Below are positions 23,431 to 27,897 of a stretch of DNA of 42,549 nucleotides, piece by piece. The position numbers were made by a program, and so were the translations under genes. Under the pieces are notes generated by a model. It was given only the letters and a program-made list of their open reading frames with translations, was not told the DNA's origin and ran no database searches. Numbering within the stretch: position 1 is the first letter of the stretch; the number at the start of each line of letters is the position of its first letter. The stretch comes from Thermoplasma sp. (lineage in GTDB: Archaea > Thermoplasmatota > Thermoplasmata > Thermoplasmatales > Thermoplasmataceae), in NCBI RefSeq assembly GCF_008709555.1, contig NZ_VYIJ01000012.1, positions 1 through 42,549 of the forward strand, in the 5' to 3' direction.

Positions 23431-24531
23431 GTGGTGATACTGGTAAATCCGTCCATACTGGAGTCTTCCTTCATACCAGACAGACTCATAGCCAGGGACG
23501 GTGAGATAGACAGGATAATGGAGACCGTTATCAAGCCTACCAGGAATGGGATAACAACAAACCTCATTCTCTACGGTGATTCAGGTACGGGCAAGACGGT
23601 CACCATGCGGTACCTGGCCAGGGAGATCAGGGATCCTTACGTCATTTACGTGAACGCCATAGCATACAGGTACGTGAAGAACGTGCTCATAGATTTTCTT
23701 TCAAAATTTGGCATAATCGTTCCAGAGAGATCGTCATACGCGAGCCTGTTCACGAGGATCGAGAGCCTCATGAAGGATCAGGGGAAGAACGTGATCCTGG
23801 TAATAGACGAGGCAGCAAACATATTGAAGAGCGATTATGATGGCCTCTATTACCTCTTCAGATCCAAGGACTCGTTCGACGTTAATATATCCACGATATT
23901 CGTCGTCATGGAGGATCCAACCATACTCTTCGATGCCAAGATCAGGAAATCCTACGGCATGTTCGGTGAGATAAAGTTCAGGAGATACACGAAGGCAGAG
24001 ATATACCAGATAGTGATGAACCGTGCGGTGCAATCCCTCACGGATGGTGGATACGATGATGACGTGCTTGACTACATTGCAGAGGTATCGGCCGAATACG
24101 GAAGCGCACGTGTTGGCATCGATATACTTGCGAAGGCCGCTCATATCGCAGAATACAGGAGATCACCAAAGATAAGCTTCGACGATGTCCGGGCTGCGAG
24201 ATCCATGATAAGCCCATTCGTCACGGAGAGCAAGCTTGCATCCATGGACTATGAAGACCTGATTGTGCTACTCGCGGTATGCAGATGCCTCTCCACTGCA
24301 AGATTCACGGATGTGGAGTGTGTTTCCAGGAATCTTGGGGTTATATCGGAACAGTACGGAAAGAAAGACATAAATCTGTACGAGAGAATAAGGCGACTGG
24401 AAAACAACGGCATAATAAGTTCATCCATAGAGGGGCAGGGCCGTGGCGAGGGCGTGAAGAAGGTCATAAGTATCTACGACATTCCCATCAGCGTGCTCAC
24501 CGAGAAGATTGAAAATCTTCTAAACGCCTGA
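23431..24531 (+). CDS. cdc6: Orc1/Cdc6 replication initiator ATPase
   Basis: This AAA+ ATPase recognises replication origins and helps load MCM. The 366-residue protein shows Walker A 'GDSGTGKT' (49-56), Walker B 'VILVIDEAAN' (121-130), a Sensor-2 region near 'YGSARVGIDILAKA', and a C-terminal winged helix (about 275-366; 'LLAVCRCLSTARFTDVECV', 'YERIRRLENNGIISSSIEG'). It starts at GTG 23431 or 23434, with ATAAATAT about 26 bases upstream. No origin-like repeats fit in the 30-base gap upstream. Its last 35 bases overlap the convergent PolB2-like gene. Confidence 0.95.
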   Translation: MVILVNPSILESSFIPDRLIARDGEIDRIMETVIKPTRNGITTNLILYGDSGTGKTVTMRYLAREIRDPYVIYVNAIAYRYVKNVLIDFLSKFGIIVPERSSYASLFTRIESLMKDQGKNVILVIDEAANILKSDYDGLYYLFRSKDSFDVNISTIFVVMEDPTILFDAKIRKSYGMFGEIKFRRYTKAEIYQIVMNRAVQSLTDGGYDDDVLDYIAEVSAEYGSARVGIDILAKAAHIAEYRRSPKISFDDVRAARSMISPFVTESKLASMDYEDLIVLLAVCRCLSTARFTDVECVSRNLGVISEQYGKKDINLYERIRRLENNGIISSSIEGQGRGEGVKKVISIYDIPISVLTEKIENLLNA

Positions 24532-26347
24532 CCTTGCTGTCCTGTGGGAACAGGAAGTTGATCTCATCAAATGCGCGCTTCAGGCACCTTGTATAGTACC
24601 CGTAATCTATATCACTTTCTTCGTTTGTGTCCACGATCTTTCTCCTTTCATCAACGACGTAGTAGTTTATCATCTGGCCAGGCGCCGCTTCATCTCCGTT
24701 AAGAAGATCAAGCGCCGACCTTGTCAGGTTTCTTACATGGTATTCGTCTGGCCTCCTTGTTACCCTCCTGGAAACAAGGAAGTAGGAACGCGGGAAATGC
24801 CTGATGTTCCTCAGGTAACTGGATTCCAGATCCATTATCTCCCTGCGTTTCTCCACTATACAGTGTATATCCGTGCATTCGGACAAAATTTTCAGGGCAT
24901 CCATCTGAAAGACCTTGCACAGATCCGGCACATCTGAACGCCTGATCATGATCCCGCGTATCTTGTATCTCCCGGAAATATCGAGACCGAAGTATCTGGA
25001 TGGAGACCCAGTGCCGTCACGTTCTGGAAGAAATGCTATCCACCTGTAATGCCCGCTCAGGACTATGTCTATACGGGTGCGCCGCCTTATCTCTGAAAGG
25101 ACCCTATCTATGCTGCCAGATCCTCTTATCCAGAGGGAGTCCACTATGCCATGTATCATCTCAAAGCCATTTTCGTGCGCAACTGCTATGGCCTCGGCCA
25201 GGACCTTCCTTCCAAGTTCCGTTATCCTCTCATGCACCTCTATCTTTCCGAACTTTGCGTTCTTGTATCCTGTGTATCCAAACGACGTCAGGAGAAGCCA
25301 TTTCAGAGCAACGTTCCTACTGTGGTATACATCGCTGTCGCCGTCCATTCCCTTGTAGAAAAGTCTCCTGTTCAGCAGGCCTTCCAGGGCCTCCGGAAGG
25401 AAACTTATGTGACCTGGCGTCAGATCGTACCTGACTATTATGCTGGGATACATCGAGGAAAAATCGATCTCATAGACGTCATCATAAACGCCCGGAATCG
25501 GCTGGAATATCAGGCCACCCCTATCCTTCTCCATCATCTCATCCTTGGTCTTCGGGCTCTCATGATCGTCCTTCTTGAACGGGACAAGCATGCCCTTCCT
25601 GATTGCTTCCGCGAGCTCCATGGATGATACCGCTGTTCCAGGCGTCACTATTGACACGTACAGCGGCGGGAGGTATGATACCCTTGAAACCTCATATATA
25701 CCGCTTAGGCCGCTTTCCGCATAGAAGAATGACCTTGAGTTTATGGCTATCTTGTCCGCTATGTCCAGGTATGCATCCCGGTATGATATCTGACCATACG
25801 ATGTGTACGATCTTCCAGGGTAGTACCTCACACGAAAACCTAGGGCCATGATCTTCCTGTAGAATTCATCCGTACCATCGTAGACGATCACATGGGAATC
25901 CATCAATCGATCGTAGATCCTGCCATCGGCCATAGACTCCCCATCCACAGTACAGTGCCCATTTTTGCACTCAACTATCGCCACGTTCAGATCCGGATCA
26001 GGATCGTACAGGCTCTGCATATCAAAGAAAGAAAGCCCGCTGGAGGCCATGAACCTCAGCACGGGATCTATGTCCGCATTGTATACCCTGTACTTTCTGC
26101 CGTACCCTATGTAAGAGAATATTATCTCGCCTATACGCCTTGCACGTGATGGCCTGACCCATATCTTTATGCCATCCCTGTAACCGTATATATCCGGCAT
26201 CGTGCTGTACTCGTACTTCAGTCTGGTCGAATCAAGCTGTGAGTAAAGAGCCTCAACATCGTATTCATCCCCAGTTACGAATATCCATGATGTGTTCTGG
26301 AATACCTTCTTCCTCACATGAATGCCGTCGTACTCGTACAGCGTCAC
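24497..26347 (-). CDS. B-family DNA polymerase of PolB2 type with degraded catalytic motifs
   Basis: This 616-residue PolB homologue is shorter than replicative PolB (about 780). Motif A 'EIDFSSMYPSI' (293-303) is intact with Asp295. Motif B 'KWLLLTSFGYTGYKNAKFG' is recognisable from Lys349. Motif C is 'HGIVDSLWI' (399-407), so the first Asp of the usual Y-G-D-T-D-S is Ile401 and only Asp403 remains. The exonuclease domain is also altered: 'SFFDMQSLYDPDPDL' (106-120) stands where D-I-E is expected (Glu to Gln), and 'VIVYDGTDEF' stands for the Y-N-x-x-x-F-D motif. These are hallmarks of archaeal PolB2. Relatives have been linked to DNA-damage tolerance. It is translated 4 bases overlapping the small gene upstream. 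Confidence 0.88.
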   Translation of the reverse strand: MTLYEYDGIHVRKKVFQNTSWIFVTGDEYDVEALYSQLDSTRLKYEYSTMPDIYGYRDGIKIWVRPSRARRIGEIIFSYIGYGRKYRVYNADIDPVLRFMASSGLSFFDMQSLYDPDPDLNVAIVECKNGHCTVDGESMADGRIYDRLMDSHVIVYDGTDEFYRKIMALGFRVRYYPGRSYTSYGQISYRDAYLDIADKIAINSRSFFYAESGLSGIYEVSRVSYLPPLYVSIVTPGTAVSSMELAEAIRKGMLVPFKKDDHESPKTKDEMMEKDRGGLIFQPIPGVYDDVYEIDFSSMYPSIIVRYDLTPGHISFLPEALEGLLNRRLFYKGMDGDSDVYHSRNVALKWLLLTSFGYTGYKNAKFGKIEVHERITELGRKVLAEAIAVAHENGFEMIHGIVDSLWIRGSGSIDRVLSEIRRRTRIDIVLSGHYRWIAFLPERDGTGSPSRYFGLDISGRYKIRGIMIRRSDVPDLCKVFQMDALKILSECTDIHCIVEKRREIMDLESSYLRNIRHFPRSYFLVSRRVTRRPDEYHVRNLTRSALDLLNGDEAAPGQMINYYVVDERRKIVDTNEESDIDYGYYTRCLKRAFDEINFLFPQDSKVRRLEDFQSSR

Positions 26348-26583
26348 CCTGTCCGATCCCCTGGCATTGATGTACGTTTTACCACCTCTATAAGTACCGA
26401 TATCAGAAAACCAAGTTCCACATCAATGCCCGCATACGATATCTCTGCCGCATGCATCCTTCCGAGCTTTATCAGGTCCTGCAGGATCTCCGCGTCTCTG
26501 GTACGCATCACCTTCTTCATCTCCTCCATGCCGGAGATGAGGATGTCGAGAGACTGCCTAGTACTGGGCGTACTCCTCCCCAT
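26344..26583 (-). CDS. Small helical protein of the PolB2 cassette
   Basis: The predicted 79-residue protein is mostly helical, with 'SLDILISGMEEMKKVMRTRDAE' broken into 'SLDILISGMEEMKK' and 'RDAEILQDLIKLGRMHAAEI' segments and an aliphatic C-terminal helix 'LGFLISVLIEVVKR'. No known domain is recognised. The start at 26583 is supported by GGTGA five bases upstream. It overlaps the preceding gene by 26 bases and the polymerase start by 4 (ATGA), so the three genes form one tightly coupled operon. It may be a polymerase accessory or DNA-binding protein. Confidence 0.65.
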   Translation of the reverse strand: MGRSTPSTRQSLDILISGMEEMKKVMRTRDAEILQDLIKLGRMHAAEISYAGIDVELGFLISVLIEVVKRTSMPGDRTG

Positions 26584-26935
26584 ATAACTCACCATGCAGC
26601 ATGTTCCTGAAGACCATCCTACCGCCCACAACCATGAGGATTATATCTGAACCTGCGTAGAACGTCTTCATCCTCATCGTATCGTACAGGTTGTCAAGAT
26701 CCGGATAAGGCCAGGAATTTATCACGTCCGATCTGGCAATTATTATGTAAGGTGTGCCAGGCCCATCGACTATGGATCTTATGAGCTGATGAACGGTGAG
26801 TATGCGCTGTATCCTGACGCCATCAGGCAGATCGGTGAAATCCATCACTATACCATCAGTGATGAGCAGCGAATAATCTTCATAGGCCTCCAGGCTTTCT
26901 GAAACTATTGGATAGTCCAGATCCAGATTATCCAT
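26558..26935 (-). CDS. Uncharacterised protein of the PolB2 cassette, possibly a degenerate RecA-fold protein
   Basis: The 125-residue soluble protein has alternating strand/helix content ('EDYSLLITDGIVMDF', 'TPYIIIARSD', 'SDIILMVVGGRMVF') like the core of a RecA/RadA-type domain, but no Walker A loop. In other archaea PolB2 genes are accompanied by inactivated RadA-like proteins, so this assignment is attractive but unproven. The frame opens at 27040. The start at ATG 26935 is preferred because CTTAAAAA at 26966-26959 lies about 26 bases upstream (ATG 26956 is the alternative). It is the first gene of the cassette. Confidence 0.6.
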   Translation of the reverse strand: MDNLDLDYPIVSESLEAYEDYSLLITDGIVMDFTDLPDGVRIQRILTVHQLIRSIVDGPGTPYIIIARSDVINSWPYPDLDNLYDTMRMKTFYAGSDIILMVVGGRMVFRNMLHGELYGEEYAQY

Positions 26936-27105
26936 TATTATGAGGTTTCCTCTCATAATTTTTAAGATCCAGACATGAAAAAAACCATTTCTGATCAGAT
27001 CAAAAATGAAAAAATATCTGAAAAAACGCATTCTGTTCAAACAGAGATAAGTTATACAGCATAATGCATGGAAAGGATGATTAGATCAACAGGTATGACC
27101 CTCCC

Positions 27106-27897
27106 ATGGGAAGGTACAGAAGGATAATCTCCCTGAGCCCGGCAGTCACAGAGATACTTTATATGATAGGTGAGAGCGACAACATAGCCGGAACATCTGC
27201 ATTCTGCGTACATCCTGAAGATGCCCGAAAGAAGAGGAAGGTGGGCAGCTATGGCACCGTGAGCTGGGATCTTGTCTCCCAGATAGATCCTGACGCCGTC
27301 TTCACAATATCTGGATACCCGCATGCGATCTACGAAAAACTCTCTGAAAAATACCACGTGGTTGAATTCGATCTTCCATCAACCGTCGCTGGAGTCCTTG
27401 ATCTTGTGATGAAGGTGGGCTTCGAGGTAGATGAACCAGATGCTTCGAGATCCCTCTACCAGAAACTGCTGAGAAGCATACCCGATCCGGTGGACGGCGA
27501 GATGACAAGCTACATCGAGCTCGATCTGGGAGGGCCAGTATCCTTTGGGACGTACAGCTACATCACGGATGCGCTATCTCTGATGCGCATTCCCTCTATA
27601 TACAGAAAAGAAAGAAAGGAATGGCTTCAACCGGATTTCGATTATGTTGAATCCATGGACCCAGACATCATAATATTCGAACCGAAGATGTTTAGAAGCC
27701 TGTCTCCAGACGATGTCGTCAGGGAAAGGGGATGGACAGATCTCAGGGCCTATAGGAACGGCAACGTTTACGTGACGCCATCAAAATACGATTTCTTTGC
27801 ACATCATGGACCGTCGTTCATAACAGATGTTCTTCCGTGGATAAATAAAATTAAAGAAAATTCCATCAGAAATAAAAAAGATCACATCGATGCGTAA
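27106..27897 (+). CDS. BtuF-like periplasmic-binding-fold protein lacking a signal peptide
   Basis: The 263-residue protein belongs to the helical-backbone metal/cobalamin/siderophore-binding family. It shows 'RIISLSPAVTEILYMIGE' at the N-terminus, 'WDLVSQIDPDAVFTISGY', 'VESMDPDIIIFEP' and 'LRAYRNGNVYVTPS'. These proteins normally deliver B12 or iron complexes to ABC importers from outside the membrane. Here the chain begins directly with the first strand and no signal peptide, lipobox or transmembrane helix is visible, and no ABC transporter genes adjoin. A cytoplasmic binding role is possible. The 3' end overlaps the EF-2 gene by 16 bases (convergent). Confidence 0.8.
   Translation: MGRYRRIISLSPAVTEILYMIGESDNIAGTSAFCVHPEDARKKRKVGSYGTVSWDLVSQIDPDAVFTISGYPHAIYEKLSEKYHVVEFDLPSTVAGVLDLVMKVGFEVDEPDASRSLYQKLLRSIPDPVDGEMTSYIELDLGGPVSFGTYSYITDALSLMRIPSIYRKERKEWLQPDFDYVESMDPDIIIFEPKMFRSLSPDDVVRERGWTDLRAYRNGNVYVTPSKYDFFAHHGPSFITDVLPWINKIKENSIRNKKDHIDA

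Follow-up and report, generated by a model that had tools for sequence, protein, structure and literature searches.

The closest described system to the locus presented here is the archaeal PolB2 operon, in which Makarova et al. (2014; PMC4104785) described RadA-like and small helical partners of the polymerase as well as an Orc1/Cdc6 neighbour. Timinskas et al. (2025; PMC11791011) modelled the three products, PolB2, PPB2 and iRadA, as a heteropentamer and likened this mutasome to Pol V (UmuC-UmuD'2-RecA). In their models, PolB2 docks iRadA through a stretch that precedes its D(K/R) motif and acts like a RadA oligomerisation motif, whereas the D(K/R) motif itself contacts the arm of PPB2. PPB2 is described there as small, helical and trimeric, with the N-terminal signature MGRT (PMC11791011). 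In Sulfolobus islandicus, Dpo2 carries Ile at the position of the first Asp of motif C and is an active translesion/extender polymerase, that Asp being dispensable in active PolB2 (PMC8764526), and Dpo2 is solely responsible for targeted mutagenesis (PMC7390963). Here, we analyzed a stretch of 42,549 nucleotides from Thermoplasma sp. (contig NZ_VYIJ01000012.1; the window), in which three adjacent genes of the minus strand (24497-26956) are arranged, as in relatives, in the order iRadA-PPB2-PolB2. With a probability of about 0.9, they form the Thermoplasma PolB2-PPB2-iRadA mutasome operon, in which a proofreading-deficient PolB2 would extend past lesions with its two partners. This is an already described system in a new genome and not a new unit. 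Its genes and catalytic motifs are as follows.

24497..26347, minus strand: polB2, B-family (PolB2) DNA polymerase, 616 amino acids (aa) from GTG 26347 or possibly 626 aa from ACG 26377 (NF004416, AlphaFold/Foldseek, 51-sequence alignment)
25463..25465, minus strand: catalytic Asp295 of motif A (DFSSMYPS), invariant in 51/51 sequences
25136..25153, minus strand: motif C, HGIVDS, residues 399-404 (51-sequence alignment)
26344..26583, minus strand: PPB2 (arCOG07300-like), small helical subunit of 79 aa with N-terminus MGRSTPSTRQ (open reading frame and start, iterative profile, published MGRT motif, PMC11791011)
26558..26956, minus strand: iRadA, predicted degenerate RadA/Rad51-fold subunit of 132 aa without Walker A (conserved start, hhalign, AlphaFold, Foldseek)

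An earlier note on this DNA, made from its letters alone, had claimed a 616-residue B-family polymerase of PolB2 type with an intact motif A Asp295 and a motif C, HGIVDS, carrying Ile401, and each of these features was found. The 616-codon open reading frame scored 833.7 bits against NCBIfam NF004416 'type B DNA-directed DNA polymerase' (cut-off 516), and Pfam recovered fragments of DNA_pol_B only. Its AlphaFold model (mean predicted local distance difference test score, pLDDT, 88.4) retrieved archaeal family B polymerases in Foldseek (5mdn, E 4.5e-29). In an alignment of 51 PolB2 sequences from archaea and bacteria, Asp275, Asp295, Lys349, His399, Val402, Asp403 and Ser404 were invariant, and position 401 was occupied by Ile (47/51) or Val (4/51). 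Motif C thus reads H-[GA]-[IV]-V-D-S across the family, an HxxxD instead of YxDTD with the distal Asp kept, and Ile401 in place of the first Asp is the PolB2 family norm. Asp275 of the D(K/R) motif is followed by Arg or Lys at position 276 in 37 of the 51 sequences, and the TPGTAVSS stretch ahead of it (residues 235-242) is strongly conserved. By analogy with the published models, iRadA may dock on this region of Thermoplasma PolB2.

The exonuclease region had been described as carrying a replacement of Glu by Gln. The sequence FFDMQS is indeed present, beginning at residue 107; the substitution is not diagnostic, as the aligned position varies within the family (E, D, K, A and G among others) and no intact Exo I motif or conserved acidic pair at positions 109-111 is common to the 51 aligned sequences. 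Loss of the proofreading motif is a trait of the PolB2 subfamily, and Thermoplasma PolB2 shares it. Together with the missing first Asp of YxDTD and the conserved Orc1/Cdc6 neighbour, this loss could also suit a catalytically dead, structural PolB2 that regulates replication initiation or fork processing with iRadA, PPB2 and the neighbouring Orc1/Cdc6 protein, and an 'inactivated polymerase' view was proposed in Rogozin 2008 and Makarova 2014 (PMC4104785). However, it would be odd for a scaffold to keep Asp295 of motif A, the distal Asp403 of motif C, Lys349 and His399 invariant in 51 sequences, and S. islandicus Dpo2, which also has Ile here, is an active enzyme on which targeted mutagenesis depends (PMC8764526, PMC7390963). 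We therefore regard a dead polymerase as improbable. The 'degraded catalytic motif' of the earlier note holds as far as the lost Asp is concerned; inactivity does not follow from it.

The two small genes, previously taken to be uncharacterised, belong to known families. The 79-aa protein begins with MGRS, which differs by one residue from the MGRT published for PPB2; other genera have MGRT or MGRN. In nearly every locus retrieved, among them those of Nitrospira and Methanomassiliicoccales, an iterative profile detected a PPB2 homologue beside PolB2. Relatives share the N-terminus that begins at ATG 26956 (MRGNLIIMDN...), so the third protein is most likely 132 rather than 125 residues long; with the 125-aa start (26935), much of the first strand of the predicted fold would be lost. 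An inverted repeat at the start of the gene, ATTATGAG-N7-CTCATAAT (~26937-26959), is absent in relatives and was dismissed as chance.

AlphaFold predicted an alternating alpha/beta fold for the 132-aa protein (pLDDT 85.5; predicted template modelling score, pTM, 0.81). Foldseek matches to this model were mostly RecA, RadA, RAD51 paralogues and the Shu complex (RecA 1mo6, E 5.7e-4; RadA 2zud, E 8.3e-4; Psy3/Csm2 Shu complex 5xyn, E 1.7e-3), in agreement with the RecA-like fold that had been suggested for it. The profile of the short iRadA family matched that of the longer iRadA (hhalign E 6.5e-5, probability 64%), and the longer iRadA in turn matched Rad51 PF08423 in 11/11 members, DMC1 chains at E ~1e-12 as well as RadA chains, and RadA of this order with 97.8% probability. 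No Walker A motif is present in the 132-aa sequence. The protein is a minimal iRadA, with a predicted RadA fold that lacks the ATPase residues.

Several results weigh against this assignment and against the operon as a working mutasome. The top Foldseek matches of iRadA were four BcsE chains (E ~1e-4) and not RecA proper. The short iRadA profile gave no significant direct match among PDB sequences, and against the canonical RadA profile hhalign returned a non-significant E of 0.18, so that the longer iRadA as intermediate and structure prediction were both needed; the putative RadA ancestry of the short protein is drawn from the longer iRadA, from the place of the gene and from the predicted fold. 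Moreover, translesion activity and damage induction are known from S. islandicus and the complex from published models, and the literature consulted reports none of the three for a Thermoplasma protein.

The missing direct PDB match, and the fact that neither small gene matches Pfam or NCBIfam, would also be expected if both were unrelated passengers and PolB2 alone mattered. Gene arrangement argues strongly against this. Iterative profiles placed iRadA, PPB2 and PolB2 in the same order and orientation in loci L036-L095 wherever the contig was long enough, so that the neighbours are conserved in nearly all Thermoplasmatales loci, as the earlier note had expected. A natural iRadA-PPB2 fusion of ~219 aa occurs at L024/L056, and the linkage extends even to bacteria. 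Relatives from Methanomassiliicoccales, Diapherotrites and Nitrospira have PPB2 and PolB2 together with a longer iRadA, which is encoded upstream of PPB2. Within Thermoplasma, the ratio of nonsynonymous to synonymous substitution rates (dN/dS) was 0.11-0.13 for iRadA, 0.17-0.20 for PPB2 and ~0.06 for PolB2, the last with synonymous sites near saturation. Because the arrangement recurs across the order and dN/dS is ~0.06-0.20, the operon reflects neither chance nor decay, and we give the passenger explanation almost no credence. The observed basis for the mutasome operon comprises family membership by sequence, the order of the genes and their conservation, the predicted fold and the signs of purifying selection.

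The genes overlap as claimed in length, by 4 nucleotides (PPB2 stop/PolB2 GTG) and 26 nucleotides (iRadA stop/PPB2 start, ATGGGGAGGAGTACGCCCAGTACTAG), and the former overlap reads GTGA, not ATGA. Among named relatives, a Thermoplasma metagenome-assembled genome (L036, 78% identity) is the nearest. The order was surveyed in 117 genomes, of which 73 encode a PolB2 scoring over the cut-off. A group without such a match (G006, G009, G011, G021) has a second PolB-like open reading frame of ~590-612 aa, which may be a divergent PolB2. A search of viral contigs gave one PolB2-like match, in the viral-classed contig IMGVR_UViG_3300044904_000224 (L115; residues 171-562, 29% identity, E 5e-59).

Downstream of polB2 lies a further gene that recurs with the system.

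23431..24531, plus strand: divergent member of the Orc1/Cdc6 family (AAA+), convergent with polB2 and overlapping it at the 3' end (TIGR02928, Cdc6_lid PF22703)

It scored 152.7 bits against TIGR02928, below the cut-off of 181.3, and matched Cdc6_lid PF22703 at 6.3e-18. The genome has two such paralogues, of which this one is the second and scores lower (152 vs 439 bits). An Orc1/Cdc6 gene is convergent downstream of polB2 in most Thermoplasmatales loci and missing in a subset among L078-L094. Such genes are enriched beside polB2, and an Orc1/Cdc6 protein acts in the archaeal damage response (PMC11791011).

Compared with the S. islandicus Dpo2 operon and the published mutasome (Timinskas 2025; Makarova 2014), the Thermoplasma locus has all three genes in a published order, a PPB2 arm of the MGR[TS] type, an HxxxD motif C in which Ile replaces the first Asp, a predicted ATPase-dead RadA-fold partner and the Orc1/Cdc6 neighbour. 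It differs in its short iRadA (132 aa) with no P-loop, in the length of PolB2 (616-626 aa vs 555 aa in S. islandicus) and in a PolB2 start codon that may be non-canonical. The Escherichia coli Pol V mutasome likewise combines a low-fidelity polymerase, a small oligomeric subunit and a RecA-fold subunit (UmuC-UmuD'2-RecA); its polymerase is of the Y family, its RecA is active and its small subunit is unrelated, so the likeness is one of analogy and not of membership. The earlier note had proposed a mutasome-like unit of PolB2 with small helical and RecA-fold subunits, which agrees with our reading, and had compared its logic with that of ImuA-ImuB-DnaE2; the closest published analogue of the unit is Pol V instead. 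DnaE2 is a C-family polymerase and ImuB is derived from the Y family. The ImuA-ImuB-DnaE2 unit resembles the Thermoplasma locus in the general logic of a polymerase with a RecA-related accessory protein, whereas the Thermoplasma polymerase belongs to family B and is no C-family DnaE2.

From the S. islandicus work and the published models, we infer for Thermoplasma a complex with translesion activity and damage induction. PolB2 would act as a B-family polymerase deficient in proofreading; it retains the catalytic palm residues Asp295, Asp403 and Lys349 and has His at the motif-C Tyr position. By homology, iRadA, lacking an ATP site, would dock on PolB2 in the manner of a RadA protomer, whereas the N-terminal arm of PPB2 (MGRS) would lie in the cleft near DNA. 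The complex would extend primers past lesions without proofreading, and this bypass would lead to higher survival and targeted mutation after damage, with induction possibly exerted through the Orc1/Cdc6 neighbour.

A search for Y-family polymerases (PF00817) gave no match in the genome of the window, which is 99.8% complete, and PolB2 is therefore the only obvious translesion candidate there; judging by gene content, this genome seems to have no other polymerase specialised in damage bypass. A family X polymerase match was just at the cut-off. Counted by hand, among 51 high-quality genomes of the order, 36 had PolB2 and 12 had a Y-family polymerase over the cut-off; 28 had PolB2 only, 8 both, 4 Y-family only and 11 neither. 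Most PolB2-bearing genomes of the order are thus without a Y-family polymerase, and a few genomes of two genera have the Y-family enzyme only. This distribution suggests that the PolB2 and Y-family translesion systems have been partially exchanged within the order.

The start of PolB2 appears unusual. GTG 26347 is not conserved, having no counterpart at the same codon in another Thermoplasma locus (L005), and the conserved protein reaches ~10 codons further upstream.

26342..26388, minus strand: conserved N-terminal extension TYINARGSDR in the PolB2 frame, upstream of GTG (cross-genus and Thermoplasma comparison)

In other genera, PolB2 starts ~12 codons upstream of the window GTG, usually at ATG, with an N-terminus such as M..IINATGSD. 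In the Thermoplasma loci compared, the homologous TYINARGSD is kept, but no ATG, GTG or TTG occurs there. Within the conserved stretch, three differences between the window and L005 (GCC/GCA, AGG/AGA, TCG/TCA) leave the PolB2 protein unchanged and alter the PPB2 protein, and two flanking codons are altered in both frames. An ACG at 26377-26375 is conserved in 5/5 Thermoplasma loci compared and lies ~5 nucleotides downstream of GAGGTG (26388-26383); GAGGTG is a Shine-Dalgarno-like sequence, and one exact pattern tried for the 16S 3' end in this genome gave no match. In the simplest reading, PolB2 may initiate at ACG 26377, giving 626 aa and a 34-nucleotide overlap with PPB2. ATC 26371 is an alternative start. 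An N-terminus obtained by frameshifting from PPB2 into PolB2 is less likely, because the AAAA run of the window is not conserved. We tentatively propose, at somewhat below even odds, that throughout the genus Thermoplasma PolB2 is translated from this non-canonical ACG, preceded by a Shine-Dalgarno-like sequence within the PPB2 gene, and that such a start might restrain a mutagenic polymerase in cells that have no other dedicated translesion polymerase; the comparison draws on few independent lineages, and the same bases are also constrained by the PPB2 frame.

Two further features lie upstream of the operon.

26957..27032, minus strand: conserved block upstream of iRadA, candidate promoter/operator (alignment of three Thermoplasma lineages)
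27106-27897, plus strand: periplasmic-binding-protein family gene (PF01497), divergently oriented neighbour of iRadA

The block of ~75 base pairs, TTTTTTCATTTT ... GGTTTTTT ... GGATCTT, is strongly conserved in the three lineages and contains two TTTTTTC elements, which makes it a candidate promoter or damage-response operator. A regulon search of the genome with this block returned this site only, once. The promoters of iRadA and of the PF01497 gene fall in one common intergenic region.

The details worth keeping are the minimal iRadA, the apparent absence of Y-family polymerases and the unusual PolB2 start. A 132-residue iRadA could point to the portion of the RadA fold that is required in the complex. 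Sulfolobus has Dpo4 in addition, whereas the PolB2 system may carry damage bypass alone here, and the role of the mutasome would then be easier to study in Thermoplasma.

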